Origin: a virus | Virus record (IMG/VR): IMGVR_UViG_3300042900_000713 | Coordinates: 1 to 39,885 of that record | Length of the DNA: 39,885 bases | Direction: 5' to 3' (one strand) | Position numbers and translations under genes: made by a program | The notes under the pieces: generated by a model | Database searches by the model: none | Told to the model about the DNA's origin: nothing | The model's input: only the letters and a program-made list of their open reading frames with translations | Part shown: piece after piece, positions 4,323 through 39,885 of the stretch | Layout of the letters: each line of letters opens with the position of its first letter | Position numbering within the stretch: the first letter of the stretch is position 1

Positions 4323-5983
4323 TACCAAGAATTCCACATATAAGAAAATTCCGATTGCTTGTCGCCATATTCGTCAGTGAACCATCTATCTCCATCTTTA
4401 TCTACAAATGTGTCCTCATTATTCACTCCATCAACAATAAATCCGAAAGGAGACATATCTTGCTCTACTTGATTCTTTTGTTCTTCATAGATTCGTTTTC
4501 TAATATCTTGATCGGTAAGTTCTTTGAAATAATCTTGAAGAATTAACCAAGAATACATTACCAAACACATTACAAGATCATCATTTCTTCCATCTTCTGC
4601 TTCAAATGAATTTGCTTTTTGAACAAACGTAGTTAATTCATTGATAATTTCAAAATCGGTAAAAGTCAATTTATTATCTTCTATGAGAGTTTTTAAATTC
4701 AAACAACCAACTTTTTTAGTTGTTTTTGACATTTTTACGCCAAGTTGAACTTTTTTCCCAGAAAAACCTTGACCCAATATTTGCCCTGCTCTACCTCTCA
4801 TAGAACTCATAAGAAGATTTGAATATTCTAAGTCGTAATGAAGACCTGCGGCTACCTGATCTCCAACATCATTTACTTCACATAGAACATATGCTTTATT
4901 GTAAGAAAGTGCAACTTCTTTTATAATTTGAGGAAATAATATTGGTCTTATTTTATTATTTCTATACTTTCCTACAACTTTGTGTGGAAATTGTGATACA
5001 TCAATTACTACGAAAGCCGAATAATCTTTTTCTACTCCACGAGCAACATCCACCGTAACAACGTATGTATGATCTTCCTGAGGGTCTTCATAAACATCTA
5101 AACCAGCACTTGAAGTCTTTGGAGTATCAAATACCAATCTATTTAATATTGGTCCAGATATAAGGGTATCTGATGAACCTAAGAATAAACATTCAAATTC
5201 TTGTCTCCATTGGGATTCTGATGTATTTGAAATAGTTAATCTTTTAAACTCTTCATCTCTTCCCGGTACATCAGTCCAATGAACTTCAATTGGAATATAA
5301 TCATTTCTACTCTTTTGTGCGTCATCCCAGAGACGGTAGAAATGATTCATACCGTATGGAGTGCTTACGACAATAACCTTAGAAGATTTGCCTGACGTAA
5401 TTACAGGATAAACTGAACTAAAGAAATTATCTGCGACTGTATTTGGAACAAACGCAAATTCGTCCAGAAAAATAATATTATAAGTTCCACCACGAATAGA
5501 AGATGCTGAAGTAGATGCGGCCGTTATCCTGGACTTATTCTCAAGTTCTAAGGACCCCTTGTTCCACGACAAGACGCCTTGTTGTAACCACTTGGGCAAA
5601 TTCTCATAACCAGTTTGAAGGCGCGTCAGAAGGTCTCTGGCGGTGTTTGCTTTGTTTGCAAGAATTGCAATATTAGTATTATCATTAAAGATTGCATAAT
5701 GAAGAAGATATGAAACTACAACTGTGCTTTTTCCTGACTGCCTAGGTAACTTACATATAGTAAATCTATTTTTATGAAAGGTATCCACCATTTCTTCTTG
5801 AAATGGATACATATCAAAATCAGATAATCCATAATCAAGTGTAGTTATTTTTATATATTTTTTAGCGAAGTATACTGGATCTTCAGCACACTTAATCCAC
5901 TCAAGTACTTGATCTTCTGTAAATTCAATTTTGGTATTTGCTTTCTTAAGAAGTGGATTACCAAGATAGTGTTCTTCAGACAT
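4322..5983 (-). CDS. 17: Terminase large subunit gp17 (packaging ATPase and nuclease)
   Basis: The motor that pumps DNA through the portal and cuts concatemers. At 553 aa it is close to T4 gp17 (610 aa). The ATPase half shows Walker A RQSGKST at residues 81-87, Walker B IIFLDEF with D174 and E175, and the coupling motif VVSTPYG near 205-211. The nuclease half shows VTVDVARGVEKDYSAF with D312, CEVNDVG with E369, and GRNDDLV with D468 or D469, the three acidic clusters of the RNase H-like nuclease. All key residues are present, so it looks intact. In T4 it follows gp16 directly; here a 650-aa gene lies between them. No strong Shine-Dalgarno sequence is visible. Confidence 0.97.
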   Translation of the reverse strand: MSEEHYLGNPLLKKANTKIEFTEDQVLEWIKCAEDPVYFAKKYIKITTLDYGLSDFDMYPFQEEMVDTFHKNRFTICKLPRQSGKSTVVVSYLLHYAIFNDNTNIAILANKANTARDLLTRLQTGYENLPKWLQQGVLSWNKGSLELENKSRITAASTSASSIRGGTYNIIFLDEFAFVPNTVADNFFSSVYPVITSGKSSKVIVVSTPYGMNHFYRLWDDAQKSRNDYIPIEVHWTDVPGRDEEFKRLTISNTSESQWRQEFECLFLGSSDTLISGPILNRLVFDTPKTSSAGLDVYEDPQEDHTYVVTVDVARGVEKDYSAFVVIDVSQFPHKVVGKYRNNKIRPILFPQIIKEVALSYNKAYVLCEVNDVGDQVAAGLHYDLEYSNLLMSSMRGRAGQILGQGFSGKKVQLGVKMSKTTKKVGCLNLKTLIEDNKLTFTDFEIINELTTFVQKANSFEAEDGRNDDLVMCLVMYSWLILQDYFKELTDQDIRKRIYEEQKNQVEQDMSPFGFIVDGVNNEDTFVDKDGDRWFTDEYGDKQSEFSYMWNSW

Positions 5984-21520: not shown

Positions 21521-21528
21521 TATTTATT
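21521..21528 (-). promoter_or_regulatory. Possible late-promoter octamer before gp8
   Basis: The minus strand reads AATAAATA, overlapping the stop codon of the 3974-aa gene and ending 14 nt before the gp8 start. The spacing leaves only a very short leader. The sequence is AT-rich, so it may be fortuitous. Confidence 0.3.
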
Positions 21529-24500
21529 TAGGTATTATAATTTGAGTATTTTAAACGATTATACCTTTGAATAACTGGAGAGGATGAAATGCCACCAATA
21601 TTCGCATAAGTGATAAATTCATCTGGATTTGGGCGTATAGGTGTCAAAATTCGCCCCCAACTATATTCTCCATAAAAATCACTAAATCCAAGTCCAGTTA
21701 AATTATTATAATTTGAAACACTTACAGTTACTTTGGTGACGTTGGTAAGTCCTACGCCAGGAACAGCAGTTTGGGCAATTGATACTGATGCAACTTGATA
21801 GATGTTATTAATAAAAGTAGTTCCGACACCAACAACCCCACCAGAAAGATTTAGTGATGTTAACCCATTACCCACATTTGAACTATGAACAATAAAGTAA
21901 TATCCAGTTTGAATTCCACTAATCCCAGTTGTAGCAATTCCCACTTTTACAATACTTGAATCTCTTATAATAGAATTTGTAGGAATAAACAAATCAAATA
22001 CAATTCCAGTTGATGCTACTCCAACAGAAGTAGTTTGAACTCCAGTAATTATTCCAAAATCACCTTCATAAGAAATTTTATCGATAATTTCATATTTTGT
22101 AGGTGGAGTTTCAATTAAAACCACTGGTGGATATGTAAACGTGTATCCAAGTCCAGCAGATGTTATTGCAATTCCTGTTACAACTCCTCCCGAAATTGTT
22201 GCAAGTGCTCTAGCAGTGTTCTGTATTGTAGTTGTTCCAAATCCAATTGGTCCGGCAATTGATACTGTTGGGATAGTAGTATATCCATTCCCATTATCTG
22301 AGATAATAATAGATGAAATTGTCCCCGAAGTAGATACTACTGCAGTAGCAGATGAAGAAACTATGGAATCTTGAGAAATAATAATAATTTTATTTTGTGG
22401 TTTTTCTGTAATTCCGTCATGAGTATACTCTTTCTCACTATCAAAGAATGCCTTAACACTTTCAACAAAAATTATGCTAGACCCTATTCCGATATTTTGA
22501 ATAATATTGGTAGTTGGTTGAATATAAGGTTCATAAAGTACCCTATCTTTACCAACTTGTTTCCCATTTATAACCAAGTCTTCAGTTTGTCTACACCAAG
22601 TTAAAGGTCTTGATAGATCTTCATTTTCAGTAATTCCTGGACCTGAATATAAGTTTGTTGAAAGTATATCAGAAGAAATAATTTCAGTAACCAATCTAGA
22701 GTTCTCTTTTAATTTAATATCATTACTAGTTAAAGTAACTTTATCTCCCTGTTTGATGGTTTCTAAAATATCTACATCCAAAGTATCAATATCTGCAGTT
22801 CCTCGATAAAATATTATTTTAGAGGTATCGCCTTCTTTTGGTGCTTCGGTAAATCGTATAATACTTCCCCCAGAAAAACGGTATCCTTCTCCCGGAACTT
22901 GTAGAATATCATTAATAAAAATTAATAAAGTTGCTTGAACATCAATAATTGAACCTTTTTTTGTTCGGATTGAAGTTTGATTCCCCCCAATACGAATTGG
23001 AAATGATTTTCTATTTCCATCAAAAAGGGAATCAATTGGGTCAATAACTTGAAGTGATCCAACCGTCCATGCAGTAAATGCATCAGAGTATACCCCATCA
23101 ATTGATAATTGGAATTCTGAAAAACTTAATGAGGTATTAGTTGGAATTCCTATGGTTCCTCCAATTGAAACCGTTAATACTTCATTTATATTATATCCAT
23201 ATCCAAAATTCTTTAATTCAAATGATATTACACTTGATCCTTGACCAACTATGATATCAACAACCGCACCAGTACCTACACCTGAAGATGATTGAGAGTT
23301 GTATATTAATGGAATATTTGAATATGATAATGGATCATCAAAAATTACGATTGGTGGATTGGATGAAGTATATCCAACTCCTGGATTTGTAATAGCAACA
23401 CTTACAACACTTCCTCCGCTTATAGAAGCGGTTCCAATTAATTGTATATTTGGAATACCAACGTTTGATGTTACAACCCCGACATTTACAACTGTCTGTA
23501 TTCCAGATCTATAACCAGATCCACTATTTCCAATACTAATAGATTGAATTGTACCTGCAACTGATACTACTGCAGTCCCTCCTGCAGATACTAATGGTTG
23601 ATATGCAAATCCTTGTGTAGATCCAACAGAAAGAATAATACCTCCTCTAGGAATACTTGAAGTGTTTACATCATAACTTGTTGATGTTGCTGATCCAGTA
23701 AATGATATGGAAGTTATTCCTGAAGACTCACTTAAGTCATAATCAACAAAATTGGGTCCTTGAAATATTTCATTTACTAATACTATAGTATTATCTGTTG
23801 ATATTCCAGATACATTTGTTCCATTAGACTTTAATGTAAATGTTTTTTGTATTCCATCAAAATCATTTGAAATATCATCAAAAATATAGTTATTTGAATA
23901 TGATTCATTATTACTATCTGCAATCCCAGATCTTAAGAATATTCTTCCACTAAATGATGACCCAGTAGCAATACCGACATAATCTTGCTCATCTGCCCTA
24001 TTTGATTGATTGACAAAAGGCACTTTTCCATAAGGTGCCTCTGAAAAATAAATTTTATTCCCAACAATGTTATAGTTTCCGTAAACTTTAGATACTAAAC
24101 TTGAAGATGAATGAGTAGATAATCCAGTTCCCATCCAAGGTCTAACTACACTTATTGAATTTGTACTTCCAACTCCAACTGCAGTAACTTTCATAATTTC
24201 TTCATCAATTTTAATCAAGTCTCCACCATAAACTGATGTTATACCAGAAACATATACCAAAGAACTAAAAGCAGTTAAATTACGAATTAATGATGATGTA
24301 ATTGCTGTTGAAACAATAGGAGATTGAATAACATTATCAATTCCAATAATTGCTTTTTTGTTTTGATTTTTTGAAGTAAATAAATGAGAACTCCCTATGC
24401 CAACAGAAGTTAATTCTAAAACTTTTGGAGTAGTTTTTAAAGCATCGGATGCAGAAGTAGAAACTCTTATTTGAGAATCATTTAGTTTAACAACATATAA

Positions 24501-27500
24501 CTTAGGAGGAAGTTTATCAGTAACACCAATACCAGGTACAGAAGTTGTAGCGATACCAATTGCTTGCGCCGACTTAGTAGGGTATGAATATATTATTTCT
24601 TCTCCAGTAACATAGTAATTGTAGGGAATTGTAATTATATTTTTATCAACTTTAATAATATCTGGATTAGTGCCATCGATATATCTTTCAAAAATTGGTA
24701 TATTTTTATGTTTTAACTCAAATTCTTTTTTAATATCTGAATTTGTTCCTGTGTATATTCCATAATCATATTCTAGAGATCCATTTATTAATGATATGTC
24801 GTCAATATTATTACTCAATCCAATGTTAATTGCAAATACTTTGATATCAACATCAATATCTTGAATGGGAGTGAAATAAATTTCAGTATTTGCACCAGAA
24901 ATTCCTGCCGTTGTAATTCCTAAAGAAGATTCTGTTTGTAAAATTCCGAATTCTGTAATATAGCATTGATTTTCTTCGTAATTTGTTACAACTAAAATTT
25001 CAGAAACTTGATATTTTGAATTGGTCTTATCTTCAATACTAATAATATAATATGAACTATTGTAATTTGTATTTGAATAACTTGATATTATGTTTGCTAC
25101 TGGAGAAACACTGGAGGAAATTGCGACTGAAGATGAATTTAGAGAACTTCCTCCAATAATTTCAGTTCCAATTCCGGAAGCACTAGTATTTGCCAAAGAC
25201 ACATTAAAAGTATTAACAATATAATCAATAGAAGTTACTGTATCTGGTATTAAATCAATTTTAATCTCCGAACCAGACAAATAAGCATTATATGTTCCAA
25301 TGCCCAAAGATGAACGTGAAGTAAAACTATCGGTTGTTATTTGTCCATAATCTAATAAATGAATTTGATTTCCATCGTTAATAATAGTAATCTCATCAAC
25401 TTCATAATATGAAGAATCAGTTGCTCCAATTTGAACTAAAACTTTTGATGCTCTATAAGTAGATGCAATTCCTACAATAGAAGTAGAAATTCCAGTTCCT
25501 TGTGGAATTATAGTATTACTAGTATTAATATGAACAGAATTTCCTAAATCTACTGTACCAATTCCACTTAGACTATCGTTGAGGGAGAAAGAAAAAATTT
25601 GTAAATTATAATTATTAAATTTTGTTTTTACTGGATAAAAAAGTAAATTTCCAGATGTTCCAGAAACACTAAAATCAAAAAATCCCAAATTCGGAGATTC
25701 TACTACATTTAATCCATATTGGTTCATAAATCCAACATTATTGTCGTGAAGAAGTACTATGGCACTAAATTGTTTCTCATTTATAAATTTTTGATCTTGT
25801 ATTAGAATAAAATATTTTTTAGATCTGACATTTGTTAACGTAAATGAGTCTACAATACTAAACTCTGTTGCTCTAGGATTACTATTAAATTCATTTGAAA
25901 TATTATCAATTACTAAAACTCTATTTCCAATAGATTCAATATAATCTTGAATAACTCTAGAATCAAATAAAATTTCATTAGAAGTAATAGTATCGTCAAT
26001 GATAAGATTATTTTCCCGAGCAAGATCAAAATCATAAACACAATTAAGGTCAATGAATCTAGACAAATCTGCAGTACCAGAAAAATCTCCTTGATTTTGA
26101 TCTGTTGAAATTCCGATATTTAATGGTTTTGATTCTATAATTAAATTACCAAATTTTTTAAATCCTGCGGTATGGTTTAACGAACTTACTGGATTATCCC
26201 AAGTAGTCAAATCTTTTTGAGATTTCAATTCATATGAAAAATATTGATAATAATCACTATCATGAATTCGTTGAAAATCGTTATTTAAAAATCCAGTTTC
26301 GGTATTCCACCCTTTTCTTGTTTTTGAGGATGAATCAACAGCATAATTAGATTCATAACTTAATATATCATTAATAATACCAACGGAGTTTGAAGTTTTT
26401 CCTCGTATATTACTACCAATAGGAAAATCATCAACTGTGGATATTTTGAGATATTGATTATCTGGATCCCAAAATTGAACATTTCCAACTGATGATTCAA
26501 AATAAATTATTTCTCCTTCATAAAAAGAGTTTTTCTTTAGAATTGGATTAAAAGTTGGAAAATATGATTCTGGAATTATTCTTCCTGCAGATGAGTTAAT
26601 TTTAAATGTTCCCGGAATTTCTTCATTATTCAAATAAGATGAGAGGTTGTATGTAACAACTCCAACTGATCCACCAAGATTTGGATCTACAGCAGTAAGA
26701 GTAAATAATGCATAATCATAATTTGAACTGTTATATCCTTTACCGGTACTATTAACACCTACACTTATACCTTCAATTAATACTTTACTCCCCACTTCAA
26801 ATGGATAATCTTCGGGATTACTAAAACTTGCACCTATAGTTACGGTTACATTTTTAGTTGAGTTGTTAAATGTAATATTATCAATTTTAATTCCATTTGA
26901 ATTATTTGTTGGAATAATTTTAGGAATCGCATTATTAAGAGAACTACTGTTTTTACGTATAGTTACTAAAGAATCACCAAGATTATAAAATAAGTCAACA
27001 TCACTAACTATTTTATTAGTTATTCCATCAATAACTACAAGATCTGGAGAAGCAGTATAATCTTTTCCAATTGAATTAATTTCAATATAATCAAAAAATG
27101 AAAGAGGTTCCAAAACTAATATACTAGGGAACTTCGTGGTAGGTCTAACACTGTAATCAGCAGAATAATCAAATCCAATATCTTGTATTTCTATTGATGT
27201 AATCTTTCCAATAGAACTGGTTTTGGGTTTAACAATTGCATTTAAACCTAAATTAGATTCTATGGAAGTAACTGAAGGTAATCTTGAATATCCTTTTCCT
27301 TTACTTAGAACTTTAACCTCATAAATTGATCCTTGTGCTGAAAGTGAATTATTAGTATAGTATTCTATGCCTTGAGTGTAAATTGGTTCTTCAGGAAATT
27401 CTAAAATATTAAAACTAAATGTTGTGGAAGTAATTCCTACGACTGAGTATTCACCATTATATTTGCTCTCAGATAAAGTAATTTTATTAAATCCTCGTAC

Positions 27501-30500
27501 TTCTGTATCAATTAAAATATCTTTTTTAATTTGCGAATTTCTGTCCAAATTAGTAGGAACCAATTTATAAAATAAATTAGTCGGAGTACTATCATTAATA
27601 GTTAACGTAATATTTGCGGTGGAAGTAATTCCAATTGTACCAATTCCTGATATATCAAATATTTGTGAAGACTGCGTTGTATTGAATTCATCAATAAATT
27701 GTTCATCCCGATAAAATCTAAATTCAAAGGCAGAATAATTTGTCGAATTGGCGTTAAATGACAGAGAGGAATCTGAAAGATCAAAAACTACTCTTTTATT
27801 TTTTGTTAAATTGAGTGGCGGATTGATTGGTGAAATTGTTCCTGGATATGAAGTTGTAATATCAATTATCTCTGGAGGTAATTTAACTGATCCATAATAA
27901 GTATCTGATAATTTAATTTTATTCGAATCAATAGTAACAATATAATAAATTCCAAAATTGATTAAACCAGTTGCTGGAGTTGTCGCTGTGTATATAACTT
28001 TTTGTCCAGTATAGTATTGGTGATTATTAATTGTAATAATATTATTAATAGTATCAATAGATGAAAAAGTTCTAGGATTAATTACCAATCTTCTATTATA
28101 GTCATCATATTTTACTACGAGTGTAGTAGAAATTCCCGGTCTTACATTAATGTTTACATTATCAAGTAGAGATAATCCATGAGTTTCTGCAGTAGAAACA
28201 GTAACTACATTTTTACTAATATTTCCAGTTAAAGTATTTGTATAATTTGTTGTAAAACTATGATTATTTCCGGTTCCCACCGAAGTAAAGTATAAAATAC
28301 CAGATTTTAATGTTGATCCAACAGAAACAAAATTTCCAATTGATCCAAGTCCAACTTTAATAGTTGAAATTCCAATTAAATCATTAGAAATTTTTGCAGC
28401 ATAAACAATTGAATTTTCTTCTAGTTGAAAAGAAGAAGATCCATTAGTAGAAATTGATATAGCATTTCCACCATTTGAAGAATATATTAAAGAATCTCCA
28501 GTATTTAAATTGTGATTTTCAATATAAATTGATTGTGTTGGTATTGTAATTTGAGTAACTCCAACACCCGGATTTGAAAAATAAATTGTGCTAACAATAC
28601 CAACTCCAGAAGTTGTTCCTAATCCAACAGACTCTCTTGGATTAAAATAAAATTCTTTATTAACATTAAAATTATATGTGGTTGAAATTCCAAAATTAAG
28701 TTTTAGTTTTCTAGTTTTCTCAGTAAATCCAATACCGGCAACATATGAAGTCAATCCAGTAGTTCCATTTTGATTACGAAGAACTTTAATTCTAGATGAT
28801 CTGGAATCAATATTTAAAATTTTAATCTTTTCATTTTGAATTTGGTAGATATCATTTTCTTTGATATTTGGATAACTTAAATCTCCAGAGACATTAAAAT
28901 AAGTAATAATTCCAGTATATTGTGCGGAACCAATTCCAGATGTTAACGTGAGATTATTTGTATTAACTACTATATTACCTGACTTTTTATAATCATTACT
29001 ACCAGTAAAAGTAACTAGATCATTATTTGAATAATTGTGTGGAATTGAAGTAAATCCAATAAAAGACTGATTATATGGATAAAACTCAATTTCATTAAAA
29101 GATGATGTAGCAACACTAATTTGAGTTACTTGTTTCCCTTTAATTGAAGAAATTTTTGCTTTTGCTCCAAATCCAGATTGGTGATTAAAAATTAATCTAT
29201 CATTTATTTTATAATTTTGCCCACCATCAAAAATTTCTATAGAATCAATAGATCCTTCTAAAACACTTTTAACAATAGAGTTTTGTTCTTTAATTTTATT
29301 TGGGTTGAGTAAATAATCATACGAAGAAATGTTATATGGAGTAATATTTCTTTTCCAATTAGTTTGATTTATATCAATATAATCTTGATTTGAATAACTG
29401 TTAAAATTAAAATCAATTGGTTTTGCTTTATATGAAGGCCCAATTATATACGGAAAGATTGGTTTTTTTGAAACACTATTAATAGTTGAAAAATATGCAT
29501 AAACTCCATTTGGATACTCTGGAGTAATTCCAAATCTTCCATTATGTTCATCTAATTTATTAAATTCATCAGAATCTTTGTTTCCAACAAAATTATAATC
29601 TTCTATAAAAAATCCTTTTGGATAAATTGATTCTCTAGGTCTACTTGATGGCGAATCTATTAGGTCATACCCAGAAATTAATGGTATTACCTTTCCGCCA
29701 GTTTTTGACGCATATCCATATGGTCCATAAATTGGATTTCCATCATATGCCCACCCAATAATTGGTGAGTGTGAATTTGCTATCTGAACTATATTTTTTA
29801 GGTATTTTGGAGCATACGCATGTGAATATTGAAGTCCATAATTGCTGTTTAGTCCTGGAGTTAAAATTCCTTCGTCAACAGATATTTGAGAATTTATTAC
29901 TAATCTTTCTACCAAATTAATTTTCCAAGATTTAATTTGTGCTTCAAATTTTGCATCTAATCCTGCTGGCGTTACTGTAATTGAAGTGTCTGTGTGATTA
30001 TACCCAATTCCACCGTATATAACTTTAACTTCAACTAAAGATCCATTTGATAATATGGGAGTTAGTACTGCACCAGTACCAGTTCCATCAATTTGAAGAT
30101 TTGGTGGAGAATTGTACCCATTTCCAGAACTATTGACCAAAACATCAACGATTTGTCCATTTGAAATAATCGGTGTTAATTGAATTCCCGATCCAGAATT
30201 TAATTCAAAGAGTGGTTGTCTATTATAATTGATAATATCCTCAGAACCATAATTTAATCCACCAGAACTAATAAATATTGATTGTATTTGCCCCCTAAAG
30301 ATTGGTTGAGCGATAGCATTAAAATTTTGACCGGAAAGAGTAGAAACCCCAATTCTTCCACTAATAGATACACTTATTTCTGGATAATTAAATCTATGAG
30401 AACCAACACCAGAGGAAGTTAGATTCACATATTGATTTGTATCATAATAGAATTTTTTAGTAACACCTAGTGTACCAATTCCAATTTGAGATAATTTAAA

Positions 30501-33452
30501 TTGATCATCATCAATTATAGTCACATAGTAAGAAGTTGAAGATGATAATCCACCTATAACAGTTTCGGTGGGATTGTATGTAATAACTTCACCACTATTA
30601 TATCCATGATTTAAAACTGTAATAGTGTTTGATGCTGTATTAATACCACTTGCACTAGTTGCAACCAATTTGTTTTGATAGTTTATTCCACTATTTTCAA
30701 TAGTGATTGATCCTATTTTTTTCTTTTTATTTTTAGATTTAAATGAATGATTTCCTACTCCATAAGAAGTCAATTGAATAGTGTTAATTCCAATAACAGC
30801 ATCTTCAAATGACTTATGGAGTTTTATGTTATACGCATCTTGAACAGAGACAAAATACGTTGAATTTGTTGGTAGATTACCTATCGTAGATATACCGCCA
30901 ACAATAGGTGATTGTCCATCAGTTACGTAAATTACTTCTTCAGCATCTCTAAACTTATGATAACTAGAAAACCCAATTGTATTTGTAGGATTTAATTTTA
31001 CTAAACCTGCAGATCCAATTGAGTTAAAAGAAACACTATGATCAAAACTTGCTAGATTTACTTTTGCAGATGCTCCAGATCCATTACCACCGATAATATC
31101 AATCGTAGGATCTTCAAGGTAATCAAACCCAGGATCTATGATATCAATTCTCTCCAGTCCACCAATAACCGAGCAATATCCATTAGCCCCAAATCCATTA
31201 GGATCTATAATTGATAAAATTGGGGGATTGATTACGTCATACCCTGAACCAGGTGCAGATACCACAATATCTTCAATTGGACCATAAAAAACATTATCTG
31301 TTGATTTATAATTAAGAAGTTCTACTCCATTAATAAAAATACCAGTTAATCCAGGTACAGTTTCATAAATTTTTCCATCAATTTCTGGATTGGAAATTTT
31401 TCTAATTAATTTTTGTGGTTCAAGTATTTGTGTATCTAGATTATTGTAAGTAAACTTTGTAAGTTCAAATTTAGCATTCTTAACATCGGCATCTATAGAA
31501 ATAAAATTTTCAGTAAAAATATTATTCCTACTTCTTGCCAATTTTATTTCAGTACCACTTATTCTTTTGATAAAATAAACGCCCGTTGAAATTCCTAAAG
31601 AATTTCCCAATGATGGTTTATATACAATTGAATCTCCAGTATAAAACTTATGTGTACCTATGTCTAAAGTAGTACCTTTGTTTAAATTATCCGCATCATC
31701 TGGTAAAAAAGTTCCACTAAAAGATATTGAACCATCATTTATGCTTAATGGTATATTTAAATATGTTGGAAGTGATGGTGAAGCAACATATAAAGAATCT
31801 TGATCTAGATAAACATTTTGAACATTTGAAGTATATTTACTCAATGATGGATATTTGTTTTTATCAGTATTAGATAACTGAACTTTAGATACATTTTTTT
31901 GAACAATATATGTTTGATTTATATTTAAATTTTGATTTGATCCAAGTAAAACACTAAAAGATTTTTCATCATTAATAGAAGTAATATTTGTAATCAGTGG
32001 ATCACCTGAAGAGGGAATTAAAGATATTGAATCTCCTAATCTAAAAGAATGATTATCAGGCACAGTAAAGGTGTATGAACCTTCAGCAGCATTATCTAAA
32101 GTTGAAATTCCGGAAACTGAGTATTTTACCGGAATATTGAAAAACCAATTATTTGCTTTAACATCTTTACTATCAATACCTAAAGTTTTTATTTTTACAA
32201 TATCTCCTTTTGAATAAAAAAGAGTATTATCAGGTATCGGTAAATCGGATAAAACACCAAGAATTCTAATTTTTACTATCTCTTCGTTAGAATATCCATA
32301 TACAAAGAAATCTGATTTGACTTCTGTTGCTGAAGGAATGTCTTGAGTAATTCCAATACAATCTAAAAATTGATTTAGTGTTTTTGACGCATAAGTAACA
32401 TTTAAAGATGTTCCATTATCAAGATCAATAATTAAGTTCCCATTTGAATTTGGAAATGCTACGGTAGAGTCTACTTCTAGTGTTGTTGATCCAGAAATTA
32501 CTGAAGATACTGATACTATTCGTGTTTTTGGGTGTATTTGAAATTTTCCATAAACACTTCCGCTTGGTTGTATATCTTTATCATAATCCGAATCTAAACT
32601 TATAACATAATAATCTTTAGATTCTCTTCTAATTTTTTCAACATTAGTTATAGTTCCCTGTGCTCTGTTTATATTTTCAGTTTCATCTTGGTAGAGAGTT
32701 GTATTTACAAGATCTTCAGGATTCCCTTCGATTTTTTCTACAACTAAATCAGAAGTGATTCTATATTGTGCGCTAGATGGTTGAATTAAATAATCTCTAG
32801 GTCTAATGACTTCAACATTTTGTCCATATAATGCACCAAATAAAATTTTAAAGGAATTGTCAGTTCCTTTTGAAGAATAAAAATCAATAGATTGCTTTAC
32901 AAAAAGTCTTTCATCTAAATCAACATATAATTCTCTTTCTTCAAATCCTGGGGTAATTTGCTTTTTAACTTTCTTGAAAAATTCTTTAAGAAAAAGAATA
33001 CTTAAGTTAGATACTTTTGTGGATAAGATATGTTCTTCTACTTGTGTTTCAGAAAAACTTAACTGATCCTTAATTTCGTATGATGTAGTTCCATCGAAAC
33101 CACGAATGCACCCTTCAAAAGATGTAGACGTTTTTGAGGTATATGTAATAATCTCAGAATCTATTAAAATAAGTCCATATGAATCCGGAAATCCTAATGT
33201 TGAATCAACATTAATTGTAGTATCAAAAAATGTTACATTTGATGATAATTTAGTTGATTCAATTAAATTTGCTAAGTTATCAACTTTAATATATTGATCA
33301 ATATTTTGAAGTATATCACTAGTGTGTCCATCACTTTCTAATGAAATATAATATTGTGATAAAAATTCAGAAACAAGAGGAAACTCTTCTTTAACAAACT
33401 CTGGAAGTTGATTTTGAATGATTGAACTGATTTTGATTCTGGTTTTTCTCAT
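21528..33452 (-). CDS. Giant 3974-aa virion protein in the gp7 (baseplate wedge) slot
   Basis: The largest gene here, lying between gp6 and gp8 where T4 has gp7 (1032 aa). The first 250 residues (FVKEEFPLVSEFLSQYYISL, ERELYVDLDERLFVKQSIDF, then KILFGALYGQNVEVIRPRDY) look like a wedge anchor and I recall this type of start from cyanophage structural proteins. The rest is a string of beta modules: RG/GT modules at about 71-120 and 3067-3115; TGD/Y modules near 595, 836, 951, 1651, 1817 and 2951; at least eleven GxGY repeats (about 736 to 3775, dense near the C-terminus); and a YHYH-type domain at about 1225-1340. No frameshift or internal stop. A link between wedge and side fibres is inferred. 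Confidence 0.85.
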   Translation of the reverse strand: MRKTRIKISSIIQNQLPEFVKEEFPLVSEFLSQYYISLESDGHTSDILQNIDQYIKVDNLANLIESTKLSSNVTFFDTTINVDSTLGFPDSYGLILIDSEIITYTSKTSTSFEGCIRGFDGTTSYEIKDQLSFSETQVEEHILSTKVSNLSILFLKEFFKKVKKQITPGFEERELYVDLDERLFVKQSIDFYSSKGTDNSFKILFGALYGQNVEVIRPRDYLIQPSSAQYRITSDLVVEKIEGNPEDLVNTTLYQDETENINRAQGTITNVEKIRRESKDYYVISLDSDYDKDIQPSGSVYGKFQIHPKTRIVSVSSVISGSTTLEVDSTVAFPNSNGNLIIDLDNGTSLNVTYASKTLNQFLDCIGITQDIPSATEVKSDFFVYGYSNEEIVKIRILGVLSDLPIPDNTLFYSKGDIVKIKTLGIDSKDVKANNWFFNIPVKYSVSGISTLDNAAEGSYTFTVPDNHSFRLGDSISLIPSSGDPLITNITSINDEKSFSVLLGSNQNLNINQTYIVQKNVSKVQLSNTDKNKYPSLSKYTSNVQNVYLDQDSLYVASPSLPTYLNIPLSINDGSISFSGTFLPDDADNLNKGTTLDIGTHKFYTGDSIVYKPSLGNSLGISTGVYFIKRISGTEIKLARSRNNIFTENFISIDADVKNAKFELTKFTYNNLDTQILEPQKLIRKISNPEIDGKIYETVPGLTGIFINGVELLNYKSTDNVFYGPIEDIVVSAPGSGYDVINPPILSIIDPNGFGANGYCSVIGGLERIDIIDPGFDYLEDPTIDIIGGNGSGASAKVNLASFDHSVSFNSIGSAGLVKLNPTNTIGFSSYHKFRDAEEVIYVTDGQSPIVGGISTIGNLPTNSTYFVSVQDAYNIKLHKSFEDAVIGINTIQLTSYGVGNHSFKSKNKKKKIGSITIENSGINYQNKLVATSASGINTASNTITVLNHGYNSGEVITYNPTETVIGGLSSSTSYYVTIIDDDQFKLSQIGIGTLGVTKKFYYDTNQYVNLTSSGVGSHRFNYPEISVSISGRIGVSTLSGQNFNAIAQPIFRGQIQSIFISSGGLNYGSEDIINYNRQPLFELNSGSGIQLTPIISNGQIVDVLVNSSGNGYNSPPNLQIDGTGTGAVLTPILSNGSLVEVKVIYGGIGYNHTDTSITVTPAGLDAKFEAQIKSWKINLVERLVINSQISVDEGILTPGLNSNYGLQYSHAYAPKYLKNIVQIANSHSPIIGWAYDGNPIYGPYGYASKTGGKVIPLISGYDLIDSPSSRPRESIYPKGFFIEDYNFVGNKDSDEFNKLDEHNGRFGITPEYPNGVYAYFSTINSVSKKPIFPYIIGPSYKAKPIDFNFNSYSNQDYIDINQTNWKRNITPYNISSYDYLLNPNKIKEQNSIVKSVLEGSIDSIEIFDGGQNYKINDRLIFNHQSGFGAKAKISSIKGKQVTQISVATSSFNEIEFYPYNQSFIGFTSIPHNYSNNDLVTFTGSNDYKKSGNIVVNTNNLTLTSGIGSAQYTGIITYFNVSGDLSYPNIKENDIYQIQNEKIKILNIDSRSSRIKVLRNQNGTTGLTSYVAGIGFTEKTRKLKLNFGISTTYNFNVNKEFYFNPRESVGLGTTSGVGIVSTIYFSNPGVGVTQITIPTQSIYIENHNLNTGDSLIYSSNGGNAISISTNGSSSFQLEENSIVYAAKISNDLIGISTIKVGLGSIGNFVSVGSTLKSGILYFTSVGTGNNHSFTTNYTNTLTGNISKNVVTVSTAETHGLSLLDNVNINVRPGISTTLVVKYDDYNRRLVINPRTFSSIDTINNIITINNHQYYTGQKVIYTATTPATGLINFGIYYIVTIDSNKIKLSDTYYGSVKLPPEIIDITTSYPGTISPINPPLNLTKNKRVVFDLSDSSLSFNANSTNYSAFEFRFYRDEQFIDEFNTTQSSQIFDISGIGTIGITSTANITLTINDSTPTNLFYKLVPTNLDRNSQIKKDILIDTEVRGFNKITLSESKYNGEYSVVGITSTTFSFNILEFPEEPIYTQGIEYYTNNSLSAQGSIYEVKVLSKGKGYSRLPSVTSIESNLGLNAIVKPKTSSIGKITSIEIQDIGFDYSADYSVRPTTKFPSILVLEPLSFFDYIEINSIGKDYTASPDLVVIDGITNKIVSDVDLFYNLGDSLVTIRKNSSSLNNAIPKIIPTNNSNGIKIDNITFNNSTKNVTVTIGASFSNPEDYPFEVGSKVLIEGISVGVNSTGKGYNSSNYDYALFTLTAVDPNLGGSVGVVTYNLSSYLNNEEIPGTFKINSSAGRIIPESYFPTFNPILKKNSFYEGEIIYFESSVGNVQFWDPDNQYLKISTVDDFPIGSNIRGKTSNSVGIINDILSYESNYAVDSSSKTRKGWNTETGFLNNDFQRIHDSDYYQYFSYELKSQKDLTTWDNPVSSLNHTAGFKKFGNLIIESKPLNIGISTDQNQGDFSGTADLSRFIDLNCVYDFDLARENNLIIDDTITSNEILFDSRVIQDYIESIGNRVLVIDNISNEFNSNPRATEFSIVDSFTLTNVRSKKYFILIQDQKFINEKQFSAIVLLHDNNVGFMNQYGLNVVESPNLGFFDFSVSGTSGNLLFYPVKTKFNNYNLQIFSFSLNDSLSGIGTVDLGNSVHINTSNTIIPQGTGISTSIVGIASTYRASKVLVQIGATDSSYYEVDEITIINDGNQIHLLDYGQITTDSFTSRSSLGIGTYNAYLSGSEIKIDLIPDTVTSIDYIVNTFNVSLANTSASGIGTEIIGGSSLNSSSVAISSSVSPVANIISSYSNTNYNSSYYIISIEDKTNSKYQVSEILVVTNYEENQCYITEFGILQTESSLGITTAGISGANTEIYFTPIQDIDVDIKVFAINIGLSNNIDDISLINGSLEYDYGIYTGTNSDIKKEFELKHKNIPIFERYIDGTNPDIIKVDKNIITIPYNYYVTGEEIIYSYPTKSAQAIGIATTSVPGIGVTDKLPPKLYVVKLNDSQIRVSTSASDALKTTPKVLELTSVGIGSSHLFTSKNQNKKAIIGIDNVIQSPIVSTAITSSLIRNLTAFSSLVYVSGITSVYGGDLIKIDEEIMKVTAVGVGSTNSISVVRPWMGTGLSTHSSSSLVSKVYGNYNIVGNKIYFSEAPYGKVPFVNQSNRADEQDYVGIATGSSFSGRIFLRSGIADSNNESYSNNYIFDDISNDFDGIQKTFTLKSNGTNVSGISTDNTIVLVNEIFQGPNFVDYDLSESSGITSISFTGSATSTSYDVNTSSIPRGGIILSVGSTQGFAYQPLVSAGGTAVVSVAGTIQSISIGNSGSGYRSGIQTVVNVGVVTSNVGIPNIQLIGTASISGGSVVSVAITNPGVGYTSSNPPIVIFDDPLSYSNIPLIYNSQSSSGVGTGAVVDIIVGQGSSVISFELKNFGYGYNINEVLTVSIGGTIGIPTNTSLSFSEFQLSIDGVYSDAFTAWTVGSLQVIDPIDSLFDGNRKSFPIRIGGNQTSIRTKKGSIIDVQATLLIFINDILQVPGEGYRFSGGSIIRFTEAPKEGDTSKIIFYRGTADIDTLDVDILETIKQGDKVTLTSNDIKLKENSRLVTEIISSDILSTNLYSGPGITENEDLSRPLTWCRQTEDLVINGKQVGKDRVLYEPYIQPTTNIIQNIGIGSSIIFVESVKAFFDSEKEYTHDGITEKPQNKIIIISQDSIVSSSATAVVSTSGTISSIIISDNGNGYTTIPTVSIAGPIGFGTTTIQNTARALATISGGVVTGIAITSAGLGYTFTYPPVVLIETPPTKYEIIDKISYEGDFGIITGVQTTSVGVASTGIVFDLFIPTNSIIRDSSIVKVGIATTGISGIQTGYYFIVHSSNVGNGLTSLNLSGGVVGVGTTFINNIYQVASVSIAQTAVPGVGLTNVTKVTVSVSNYNNLTGLGFSDFYGEYSWGRILTPIRPNPDEFITYANIGGISSSPVIQRYNRLKYSNYNT
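22100..23560 (-). repeat. C-terminal cluster of GxGY beta repeats in the giant protein
   Basis: Coding repeats of pattern I-x-I-x-x-x-G-x-G-Y-x-x-x-P-x-V, about 40-60 residues apart: ISIGNSGSGYRSG, VAITNPGVGYTSSNPP, FELKNFGYGYNIN, IIISDNGNGYTTIP and IAITSAGLGYTFTYPP. Each seems to be a beta hairpin followed by a Gly-rich joint with a SGG or GGVV linker. The same repeat occurs in gp8, gp14 and the 2604-aa protein. Confidence 0.75.
29420..29790 (-). other. YHYH-type domain inside the giant protein
   Basis: Around residues 1225-1340 the protein reads HSPIIGWAYDGNPIYGPYGY, then LDEHNGRFGITPEYPNGVYA with YFST, then FPYIIGPSYKA. This is the pattern of the YHYH family (PF14240), with the DGxPIYG, D-E-x-N-G-R, TPEYPxGxYxY and PYxxG landmarks all present. 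The YHYH domain is found in secreted and surface proteins of unknown biochemical function. Here it lies between two GxGY repeats, so it looks like an inserted globular domain. Confidence 0.8.
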
Positions 33453-37559: not shown

Positions 37560-37714
37560 TTTTTTGTGAGAGTCTTATATAACTATCGCGTTTCTTAAGA
37601 TTTGTAGGTTACAGGGACCCATCGATTTTTATCGGCATGGCGCCGCCCATAAGGATCGCTTATCATTAAAAACACTGTCCATAAGCACGACTAATGACTG
37701 TACTTAAGCACGAA

Positions 37715-37755
37715 CATAGTGGGTGCTAAGTGTAACGAACTCAGCACCCACTATG
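37715..37755 (-). terminator. Strong 13-bp hairpin after the 100-aa gene
   Basis: Perfect arms CATAGTGGGTGCT and AGCACCCACTATG with a 15-nt loop that can pair three further bases across one mismatch. It starts 7 nt after the stop codon of the 100-aa gene, so it probably ends or protects that transcript. There is no T-run on either side, so it is not a textbook intrinsic terminator. Confidence 0.6.
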
Positions 37756-37761
37756 TGTAAC

Positions 37762-38125: not shown

Positions 38126-38302
38126 TCAGGCGTCGAAGGTTTCCATCGCCCAACTCCACAAACTACGGGAATTGATAAGGTCTACGGAATAGGTCTTGCC
38201 AAACCTATTCTTCAAACCGTCAACTACATAACCCTCACGAGAAGAACCCGTGAGGATATAACCGGATTGCTGGCAGTGAGCGAGGATCTGATCGAAGGTC
38301 AT
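38126..38302 (-). CDS. Cassette B: 58-aa protein of unknown function
   Basis: Starts MTFDQILAHCQQSGYILTGS and ends INSRSLWSWAMETFDA. One Cys, no Cys pair, no membrane segment. The sequence could form a small alpha/beta fold (GYVVDGLKNRFGKTYSVDLI). The ORF is too short for statistical support on its own; it is called because the ATG and TGA sit exactly at the edges of the conserved inter-gene units, as for its neighbours. Confidence 0.68.
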   Translation of the reverse strand: MTFDQILAHCQQSGYILTGSSREGYVVDGLKNRFGKTYSVDLINSRSLWSWAMETFDA

Positions 38303-38376
38303 CGGTCTCGTGTGCGGTGTTGACTCTGGAATTGTAGCACGGATCCGGGGGGACCGTGAGTCCCCCCTCGCTGGAT
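38303..38376 (-). repeat. Inter-cassette unit before B (class I)
   Basis: A 74-bp unit filling the whole gap between the stop of C and the start of B. In order on the minus strand: ATCCAGC after the TGA, the hairpin GGGGGGAC/GTCCCCCC with loop TCACG (38347-38367), palindrome CGGATCCG, extended -10 TGCTACAAT (38331-38339), and leader with invariant core GAGTCAACACCGCAC. The -10 lies 29 nt before the ATG. Terminator-like hairpin, promoter and leader are inferred from layout; there is no U-tract. Confidence 0.7.
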
Positions 38377-38634
38377 TCAGACTGCGACCCAGTAGGAATA
38401 GTTCGGGGTATTGTCTAGATCCCGCTGCTCTGCCATGATGTACTCATGACGGAAGTTGTAATGAGCATCGGATGCCCGCCATCCCTGGCACTGATTGTAA
38501 ACATCTTCCAGAGTGCGAGCATAAGCAATAGTGCAGGCGATTCTGCCATCCACAACCTTAGCAACGGCAAACGGGTAACGGTCCGGGGTGAGAATGGTCT
38601 TGAGCGGGGTCGGGGTGATGGTGGAAGCGGTCAT
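38377..38634 (-). CDS. Cassette C: 85-aa protein of unknown function
   Basis: Starts MTASTITPTPLKTILTPDRY and ends AEQRDLDNTPNYSYWVAV. The middle (FAVAKVVDGRIACTIAYART, then LEDVYNQCQGWRAS) suggests a small alpha/beta protein. The reading frame stays open further upstream to 38724, but that extension would run through the conserved inter-gene unit, so the ATG at 38634 is chosen. The first eight residues (MTASTITP) are identical to those of cassette E, and the DNA around the start is shared, implying duplication of the 5' part. No known domain. Confidence 0.72.
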   Translation of the reverse strand: MTASTITPTPLKTILTPDRYPFAVAKVVDGRIACTIAYARTLEDVYNQCQGWRASDAHYNFRHEYIMAEQRDLDNTPNYSYWVAV

Positions 38635-38708
38635 CGGTCTCGGGTGCGGTGTTGACTCTGGAATTGTAGCACGGATCCGGGGGGACCGTGAGTCCCCCCT
38701 CGCTGGAT
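38635..38708 (-). repeat. Inter-cassette unit before C (class I)
   Basis: A 74-bp unit almost identical to the one before B: hairpin 38679-38699 (8-bp G/C stem), CGGATCCG, extended -10 TGCTACAAT (38663-38671) and the invariant leader core. The -10 is 29 nt before the ATG. The leader differs from the B copy by only one or two bases (CCCGAGACCG versus CACGAGACCG). Confidence 0.7.
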
Positions 38709-38897
38709 TCAGTATCCTAACCACACCAGCAGTTCGCCTAGATCTACTCGCCCGAACTTCGCGGTAGTTCCGTACTCTGAACGAAAGTCATTCAGGCAGC
38801 AGTGGTCTTTAGCAACCTCGTAGGCAAGATGCCAGGAGATTGTATCACTATCGTCTGCCGCGTTTTGTAGAATCTGCGGAAGGGTGGCGCTGTTCAT
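38709..38897 (-). CDS. Cassette D: 62-aa protein of unknown function
   Basis: Starts MNSATLPQILQNAADDSDTI and ends LGELLVWLGY. Sequence is helical and acidic with a Cys-Cys pair in DHCCLNDFRSE. No recognised domain. The N-terminus does not share the MTAST start of C and E, and its upstream unit is class II, so this cassette has a different promoter variant from its neighbours. Confidence 0.68.
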   Translation of the reverse strand: MNSATLPQILQNAADDSDTISWHLAYEVAKDHCCLNDFRSEYGTTAKFGRVDLGELLVWLGY

Positions 38898-38971
38898 TGT
38901 GTCGTGTGCGGTGTTGACTCTTTAATCCTAGTCGGTCAGGAGGGGGACCCGTGAGTCCCCCCTTGCTGGAT
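38898..38971 (-). repeat. Inter-cassette unit before D (class II)
   Basis: A 74-bp unit with hairpin GGGGGAC/GTCCCCC (38942-38961) and the invariant leader core, but the middle differs from class I: the -10-like element is TAGGAT (38925-38930), 28 nt before the ATG, preceded by CTGACCGAC instead of CGGATCCG. No extended -10 TG. Confidence 0.66.
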
Positions 38972-39187
38972 TCAATCAACCCATAACGCGTTAGCGATGA
39001 TGCTCGCCGCTCCCCCTATGTCATCTCTGACGATCCTGCGAAGAACTTCCTGCCCCAATTCGGTTTTGTGCATGGCACGGATACCCTCAGCACTTTTGGG
39101 ATCGTATGCAACGACCTTGAATGACTCCGCGATCAGGAGAAGAACCTCGGGGGTGAGGGCGGCAGGGGTGATGGTGGAAGCGGTCAT
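38972..39187 (-). CDS. Cassette E: 71-aa protein of unknown function
   Basis: Starts MTASTITPAALTPEVLLLIA, with an amphipathic helical stretch (ESFKVVAYDPKSAEGIRAMH) and a C-terminus GGAASIIANALWVD. The N-terminal eight residues match cassette C. No named domain or Cys motif. The TGA and ATG lie at the edges of conserved units, as for the other cassettes. It could bind a protein or membrane partner, but there is no direct evidence. Confidence 0.68.
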   Translation of the reverse strand: MTASTITPAALTPEVLLLIAESFKVVAYDPKSAEGIRAMHKTELGQEVLRRIVRDDIGGAASIIANALWVD

Positions 39188-39259
39188 CGGTCTCGTGTGC
39201 GGTGTTGACTCTGGAATTGTAGCACGGATCCGGGGGACCCGTGAGTCCCCCAGCAGGAT
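39188..39259 (-). repeat. Inter-cassette unit before E (class I)
   Basis: A 72-bp class I unit: hairpin GGGGGAC/GTCCCCC (39232-39251), CGGATCCG, extended -10 TGCTACAAT (39216-39224) 29 nt before the ATG, invariant leader core and CACGAGACCG immediately before ATG. Nearly identical to the units before B and C. Confidence 0.7.
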
Positions 39260-39433
39260 TCAGATTATCGGTGAGATCACTTCGTTCGAGAATGCATCGG
39301 CGAACTGCGCTGCTAATGCAGTAGCGGGAACACCATAATCGGTCGTGAGCGGATTAAACGTAGAATCGTCATTCTTGCGAGCGACCCAGACGGTGGCGCG
39401 GTCAGAGAGGCGGGATGCTTGTGATAGAATCAT
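39260..39433 (-). CDS. Cassette F: 57-aa protein of unknown function
   Basis: Starts MILSQASRLSDRATVWVARK and ends AQFADAFSNEVISPII. A short helical or mixed sequence with no recognised motif. Called on position between two conserved units and on an unbroken frame, not on homology. Its start codon is spaced slightly further from the -10 (32 nt) than in the other cassettes. Confidence 0.63.
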   Translation of the reverse strand: MILSQASRLSDRATVWVARKNDDSTFNPLTTDYGVPATALAAQFADAFSNEVISPII

Positions 39434-39508
39434 GATCGGTCTCGGGTGCGGTGTTGACTCGGTAAGTCTAGCGGGTCAGAGGGGGGACCGTGAGTCCCCC
39501 CGGCAGAA
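39434..39508 (-). repeat. Inter-cassette unit before F (class II variant)
   Basis: A 75-bp unit with the 8-bp hairpin GGGGGGAC/GTCCCCCC (39481-39501), a -10-like TAGACT (39465-39470) and the invariant core. The leader carries three extra bases before the ATG. Confidence 0.64.
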
Positions 39509-39682
39509 TCACCAGATCGCAGGGGATCCGTTCCGGTAGGATCCGATGATCATGCCGTTCTGGCGAACCTCAGCGTACCCATAATCCTGCGAGAGATCCA
39601 GGCAGAGATCCCATGCGCGATCGGCATCGGTGGTTTCGTTCTCCCAGGTGGCAGCGGGGCAGATGACGGAGAGGCGGGTCAT
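39509..39682 (-). CDS. Cassette G: 57-aa protein of unknown function
   Basis: Starts MTRLSVICPAATWENETTDA and ends MIIGSYRNGSPAIW. It reads like a small alpha/beta protein (RAWDLCLDLSQDYGYAEVRQ). Two well-separated Cys residues do not form an obvious metal site. No known family is recognised. Both flanks are conserved units. Confidence 0.65.
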   Translation of the reverse strand: MTRLSVICPAATWENETTDADRAWDLCLDLSQDYGYAEVRQNGMIIGSYRNGSPAIW

Positions 39683-39764
39683 GGTCTCGTGTGCGGTGTT
39701 GACTCTGTAATCCTAGTCGGTCAGGAGGGGGAACCGTGAGTCCCCCGTGCCAGTTGCTAGATTG
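39683..39764 (-). repeat. Inter-cassette unit before G (class II, longest)
   Basis: An 82-bp unit. The hairpin (39727-39746) keeps the G5 arm but its partner arm carries TT, leaving about 6 bp of stem. The -10-like TAGGAT (39710-39715) lies 28 nt before the ATG and the invariant core follows. Extra length lies between the stop of H and the hairpin (CAATCTAGCAACTGGCAC). Confidence 0.63.
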
Positions 39765-39885
39765 TCACATCGCCCAGAGATCATCTACCGTACACTCCAT
39801 CATCGCGGCAAATTGCTCACAACTAAGTGAGTAATCTATCGGAGACAGTGTAGGAATGTCATTCTCCCAGACTACATTAAACTCT
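39765..39885 (-). CDS. Cassette H: C-terminal fragment of a small protein (gene continues past the right edge)
   Basis: Thirty-nine codons are visible before the TGA at 39765-39767. The fragment reads NVVWENDIPTLSPIDYSLSC then EQFAAMMECTVDDLWAM, acidic and helical. It occupies the next slot of the cassette array. No function is recognised and the start is out of view. Confidence 0.6.
   Translation of the reverse strand, partial: EFNVVWENDIPTLSPIDYSLSCEQFAAMMECTVDDLWAM

Follow-up and report, generated by a model that had tools for sequence, protein, structure and literature searches.

The stretch of DNA that we analysed (the window) comprises positions 1 to 39,885 of the 124,703-bp viral record IMGVR_UViG_3300042900_000713 (G000), and near its end, on the minus strand, lies a run of small open reading frames encoding proteins of 58 aa (38126–38302), 85 aa (38377–38634), 62 aa (38709–38897), 71 aa (38972–39187), 57 aa (39260–39433) and 57 aa (39509–39682). 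The 58-, 85- and 71-aa products have no PHROG match, and the others match families of unknown function, namely phrog_25802 for the 62-aa protein (E = 0.0037), phrog_30762 for the 39260–39433 product (E = 0.00088) and phrog_17176 for the 39509–39682 product, which has an orthologue, SCREM1_138, in Synechococcus phage S-CREM1. The source of the window is a T4-like cyanophage, as region 35367–37084 matches 165 phage records, all of them named Synechococcus phage, cyanophage, Prochlorococcus phage or marine virus, and the best matches (S-SM2 and Bellamy) extend over baseplate wedge gp25 and its neighbours. No psbA was found in the record. The small-gene block 38126–39682 is compositionally foreign, with a GC content of 49–60% against 28–38% in the rest of the window. 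A minus-strand ORF of 3974 aa (21528–33452) adjoins the baseplate genes, and directly past the last small gene sits an inverted repeat (37714–37756; 18-nt arms, 94% complementary) that is probably the terminator of the array described below.

The small genes belong to an array of 20 cassette units (38.3–45.2 kb), the downstream end of which is formed by the six units in the window. Every unit occupies the interval that separates one gene's stop codon from the start codon of the small gene (50–105 codons) downstream. A sequence-only reading of the window had pointed to a 15-nt leader core, GAGTCAACACCGCAC, as identical in six units, and exact copies are indeed present between 38312 and 39705, on the minus strand only, at 38312–38326, 38644–38658, 38906–38920, 39197–39211, 39446–39460 and 39691–39705 (units 38325, 38657, 38919, 39210, 39459 and 39704, respectively). 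The expectation from shuffled sequence is 0.23 copies at up to 3 mismatches, and none of 100 shuffles reached six. Our search of the whole record revealed eight exact copies, the additional two being at 40645–40659 and 40984–40998, and apart from these eight sites the 15-mer is absent from the 124,703 bp even at one mismatch. The core is thus confined to one strand-consistent array (38.3–41.0 kb) rather than placed at random, which answers the genome-wide search proposed in that reading. In a ninth unit (40394) the first 12 bases of the 15-mer are retained; GAGTCAACACCG is invariant in all nine aligned units and the full 15-mer in eight of them, and within the stem-loop ACGG and CCCC likewise do not vary among the nine.

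Preceding each window copy is a -10 element, TACAAT at 38331–38336 (after TGC, the extended -10 form), 38663–38668 and 39216–39221, TAGGAT at 38925–38930 and 39710–39715, and TAGACT at 39465–39470. Both the -10 and the bases preceding the ATG therefore vary between units, as the same reading had observed, and it also placed the core correctly just 3' of the predicted transcription start, since its first base coincides with the +1 predicted from the -10 or lies no more than 2 nt away. Its remark that a Shine-Dalgarno sequence is lacking holds too, with a Shine-Dalgarno 4-mer in 0 of 9 leaders of the 15-mer type. Further upstream, all nine aligned units carry a GC stem-loop, located in the window at 38347–38367 (GGGGGGACTCACGGTCCCCCC, terminator-like), 38679–38699, 38942–38962, 39232–39251, 39481–39501 and 39727–39746. 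These have strong GC stems with no U tract and fold only 1.1–1.5 sd better than shuffled sequences (z −1.1 to −1.5). No -35 element is apparent in the six window units.

What the sequence-only reading did not notice is that the array extends upstream beyond the window, where its units share a shorter leader, AGTCAACC; the GC-rich downstream units have AGTCAACACCGCAC. Minus-strand AGTCAACM occurs 19 times in the whole record, 17 times in the array and once (77.0 kb) at the head of a promoter of the same class. Nucleotide relatives of the array in phages amounted to one 125-bp match, and none were found for one array unit searched singly. A wider distribution of the 15-mer itself was considered and rejected, as 28 of the 30 IMG/VR stretches with an exact copy proved to be of unrelated context; the remaining two are L037, which has the same array, and L011, a relative discussed below. 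The leader of the 39509–39682 gene reads AGTCAACACCGCAC here, AGTCAACCGGAAACG in two contigs and AGTAATCGGAAATCAC in S-CREM1, and across these four orthologues the first six bases share only AGT and one A. Because orthologues carry other tails, the 15-mer is best described as a start region found in part of a promoter class joined to a local tail. The 15-nt stretch is not a natural unit, although its AGTCAA part is shared across phages; the remainder appears, from the sequences compared, to be specific to the GC-rich block here and in one relative.

The spacing of AGTCAA relative to the -10 is strict. TANNNT and AGTCAA are separated by exactly 5 nt at 18 sites in G000 (control 1), 8 in G004 (0) and 6 in Syn9 (1), and by 4 nt, our wrong-spacing control, at none. 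The same 5-nt gap occurs in G002, Bellamy and DSL-LC02, and the fixed distance between -10 and start region is that of a sigma70-type promoter. Promoters of the class can nevertheless do without AGTCAA, which follows only 25 of 87 promoters selected by their upstream TGGCAC box, with a purine-T at +1/+2 being commoner (64/87). It was not seen after promoters in P-SSM2, S-CRM01 and P-SSM4, and CATACACAA, AGTAAAC and AGTTCAAC are found in its place. The region upstream of the -10 alternates as well. Among 374 cassettes of the class, 62 have a -35 with 5 or 6 of 6 matches at an offset of 12–16 (2.2% in shuffled sequence), peaking at 13–14, and stems of 5 bp or more are present in 26% against 9%. 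At these thresholds, 53 cassettes have a -35 only, 87 a stem only, 9 both and 225 neither.

The full cassette includes an operator, a 22-bp dyad that precedes the terminator-like stem-loop or -35, the -10 and the start region. Its consensus is GTG(A/C)CA(G/C)TT-N4-AACTGGCAC (GTGMCASTT-N4-AACTGGCAC), the left part mirroring TGGCACA. In the window the operator is retained only by unit 39704 (39747–39768, minus strand), where the right half TGGCAC (39747–39752) is intact and the left half degenerate, and TGGCAC is lost in the other five. Given that these five also show no -35, their promoters may be weak. In intact units TGGCAC starts 47, 48 or 49 nt upstream of AGTCAA/C in 8, 11 and 10 unique cases, respectively, part of this harvest having come from a pattern restricted to 42–52 nt. 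Because that pattern biased the spacing, TGGCACA was analysed alone: TANNNT starts at an offset of 36, 37 or 38 in 39, 28 and 11 of 154 non-redundant cyanophage sites (78 in sum), over a background of about 2.5 per offset. IMG/VR contigs picked by the dyad alone give the same peak (38, 21 and 5 of 121). These counts leave out duplicate sequences, sites too close to stretch ends and, where stated, T4, and from one harvest of more than 120 stretches the 80 listed were analysed. When box and -10 stand at the right offset, a start codon with an ORF of at least 30 codons follows 10–35 nt past the predicted +1 in 300 of 458 cases, compared with 15–45% at wrong offsets and 10 of 65 with reversed boxes.

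The second half-site of the dyad scores 5.8 of 9 against 2.2 in shuffled sequence (96 sites). We rejected the dyad as an RNA hairpin since its halves do not covary as pairs (64 of 99 G/C cells mismatched), and because they vary without keeping base pairing we predict a site for a dimeric protein rather than an RNA stem. Its position upstream of the -35 makes an activator more likely than a repressor as the putative phage regulator. As a place where a phage factor binds, this dyad, which the sequence-only reading had not seen, is better supported than the 15-mer, for which that reading had suggested such a role.

Our search for TGGCAC-N29-33-TANNNT-N18-40-ATG revealed 22 matches in G000 (control 1), 35 in G002 (0), 16 in P-SSM2 (1), 14 in Syn9 (2), 14 in S-CRM01 (1), 13 in Bellamy (1) and 10 in S-PM2 (0). 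Many of the Syn9 matches resemble coding sequence, and by eye only 2 of the 14 have AGTCAA. There was little or no excess in S-CREM1 (1, control 3), S-SM2 (2, 2), DSL-LC02 (1, 0) and S-B43 (4, 1); a TGTCCAC form of the box in S-CREM1 and DSL-LC02 accounts for part of this. In T4 the box-promoter geometry was not above control (2 matches against 2). Of 15 phage records, 7 contained operator and promoter together, with 19 matches in all and none in the reversed control. In host-family genomes the combination was found in 0 of 250 besides the seed, the one matching genome of 251, which had been selected for having a match, and eight cyanobacterial genomes selected for a dyad match yielded four dyad-plus-promoter matches, of which two lie on the very contigs used for the selection. 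The dyad alone was found in 257 Gb of genomes in 32 stretches, 8 of them cyanobacterial, against about 30 expected by our own estimate. A host regulon was rejected on this near-chance rate and on the absence of the combination from the 250 genomes; the operator-promoter cassette is phage-specific.

The leaders of the class are short and rich in A and C (median 18 nt, 67.4% A+C, 301 leaders). A Shine-Dalgarno 4-mer is present in 3 of the 20 array leaders, and Shine-Dalgarno-like 4-mers in 65 of the 301 class leaders (22%, shuffled 10.5%), so absence of the element is a rule of the class and not a peculiarity of the window. A known RNA family was sought with Rfam in positions 1–9000 of L039 and dismissed, only two sub-threshold microRNA matches being returned. 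In Syn9, the annotated start of gp73 (L078 2809, record 48608) is upstream of a predicted -10 at 48611, and a downstream ATG comes after AGTCAAAG, from which it follows that the annotated start may be wrong.

The relative L011 allowed one comparison of gene content. Between G000 and L011, identity is 97–99% for two cassettes and 90% for a third, with 66.5% and 84% for the genes next to them; some L011 features begin one base off and the 39210 pieces are 193 and 203 long, with little effect on the identities. L011 has one added gene with its own cassette and one replaced, strongly diverged allele (66.5%), between genes at 97%, so that in this single comparison gene exchange is bounded by cassettes. 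The mosaic is suggestive of cassette-bounded copying, and it lends direct if limited support, from one relative, to the earlier proposal of a recombination homology block. Two different proteins in the window (38972–39187 and 38377–38634) have the N-terminus MTASTITP in common, which suggests that copying ran past the start codon. In L039, different small proteins (5494–5646 and 5761–5913) share the start MTTTDT, again a sign that cassette copying extended beyond the ATG.

In the reading that we consider probable, a composite promoter-terminator cassette precedes each small gene of a hyperplastic region, and the 15-mer forms its transcription-start end. The cassette would start at the stop codon of the upstream gene and, in its intact form, continue with the dyad operator, to which a putative dimeric regulator, probably phage-encoded or phage-delivered, would bind. 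The stem-loop would end the upstream transcript, a sigma70 -35 taking its place in other phages, and the -10 would be followed by the start region, here GAGTCAAC, with the predicted start at GAGT. A host polymerase of the sigma70 type would then produce mostly one-gene messages, one per cassette, each with a short A/C-rich leader mostly lacking a Shine-Dalgarno sequence and an ATG at +18 to +28. Recombination may copy cassettes with and between genes and so keep the six window copies identical, the operator having presumably decayed in five of them.

A role of the 15-mer in translation or stability, one of the options offered by the sequence-only reading, is also possible, though we hold it to be unlikely; the core would then be selected in its own right at the RNA level, as an A/C-rich 5' end free of structure and serving Shine-Dalgarno-free ribosome recruitment or message protection. 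The base composition of the class leaders fits, three window leaders fold at only −0.9 to −2.9 kcal/mol, and the first 12 bases are invariant in nine of nine units even though the operator is mostly lost. However, the 301 leaders fold no more weakly than shuffled ones (−2.76 against −2.79), there is no Rfam family at a credible score, and the end of the 15-mer differs in other phages, the four orthologues of the 39704 gene having three tails. Somewhat more doubtful still is the idea that the identity is a mere by-product of recent duplication or gene conversion, with homology for small-gene shuffling as the sole role. The near-identical cassettes beside diverged genes in L011, the shared MTASTITP beyond the ATG and the foreign composition of the block are all consistent with it, but copying alone is insufficient because phages that differ in the other cassette bases still have -10, TGGCACA and AGTCAA at fixed distances from one another.

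Improbable, in our view, is that AGTCAA itself is recognised, in DNA or RNA, by a phage factor acting at the start site; the exact 5-nt distance to the -10 in G000, G004 and Syn9 would suit such a site, yet the same would be expected if the polymerase prefers certain start regions, and three other sequences occupy the same place. On the plus strand, GTTGACTC resembles TTGACA, and its TTGACT, the reverse complement, could be read as the -35 of an antisense promoter, a reading we give almost no credence given that two units read by eye have no -10-like hexamer 17 nt on. The composite promoter-terminator cassette remains our preferred reading.

More speculatively, and with considerable doubt, we envisage a T4-like cyanophage regulon in which a phage-borne dimeric regulator acts on the 22-bp dyad upstream of the -35 position at dozens of small-gene promoters per genome, cassettes with a -35 or a terminator stem-loop being interchangeable, and in which an integrated Cyanobium element with the same operator could sense infection via the phage regulator. 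That element is a tRNA-Ser-flanked island at 113.5–128.4 kb of Cyanobium sp. CH-040 contig NZ_JAGQCJ010000001.1 (G010:C1, L253/L254), with genes for a tyrosine integrase, a protein weakly matching a Sak-like annealing protein and a Type ISP restriction enzyme. It has the phage dyad twice, about 140 nt before the integrase ORF and about 126 nt before a leftward gene run, the second with a -35-like TTGCCG, a 17-bp spacer and a -10 TATAGT, and the island may serve to detect infection by a phage. Separately, L158, L197 (IMGVR_UViG_3300008113_001711) and L164 carry the dyad followed by TTGACA in tandem with a period of about 58 bp, which suggests either a promoter array or an iteron-like one.

The cassette class probably corresponds to elements already published. 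The promoter-early stem-loops (PeSLs) of T4-type phages, said to have been described by Arbiol in 2010 and Comeau in 2014, are reportedly composites of a stem-loop and an early promoter, dense in one region between small genes, where the cassettes are said to bound gene gain, loss and swap. The present units share this layout, a stem-loop and a promoter separating successive small genes in a hyperplastic region, over 20 stop-to-start intervals, of which the nine aligned ones all have stems, and with cassette-bounded gene exchange in one relative (L011), as the PeSL model would predict. They differ in having an upstream dyad operator at fixed spacing and AGTCAA start regions, and in belonging to a cyanophage and mostly lacking a Shine-Dalgarno sequence. 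For the early genes of Synechococcus phage Syn9, Doron in 2016 reportedly found a ‘novel regulatory element’ that other T4-like cyanophages are said to have conserved. It too concerns T4-like cyanophage early genes, and Syn9 carries the present class; that the dyad is this element is a lead, the two being likened by description and not by sequence.

In the sections of the S-PM2 report that we draw on, the ORF-rich region has a much lower stem-loop density and PeSL shuffling is judged unlikely there (PMC4503421). The Start Associated Sequences (SAS) and ESAS of Cluster K mycobacteriophages are, in the part of their description used here, short conserved sequences near many start codons, resembling the present class in their absence from the host and in an inverted repeat lying upstream, whose behaviour is not that of an RNA hairpin (PMC3203893). 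The SAS, according to the same text, contains an AGGAG that pairs with 16S rRNA 3–7 bp from the start (PMC3203893), whereas the 15-mer core has no Shine-Dalgarno sequence and lies at the predicted 5' end of the message. Intergenic repeats of halovirus HF2 are described in the abstract as shown to be promoters, but of an archaeal virus with another promoter type, and no dyad or stem-loop is described there (PMC8707807). The early and middle promoter system of T4 differs in that the box-promoter geometry of the cassettes does not exceed control there. According to the portion of a 2010 review cited here, it was unclear how T4-like cyanophages activate their early and middle genes when they lack MotA, AsiA and Alt (PMC2984593).

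The motif was not found in print among the open-licence papers searched. A consensus of operator, spacing, -10 and start region can be used to mark promoters, correct gene starts and predict a regulon in very abundant viruses, and it opens the search for the regulator to direct testing, with the operator-less GC-rich cassettes as natural mutants. Compared with PeSLs and the Syn9 early element, then, the kind of element is known, and what is added here is the exact consensus, the alternation of -35 and stem-loop, and the operator-less GC-rich branch.
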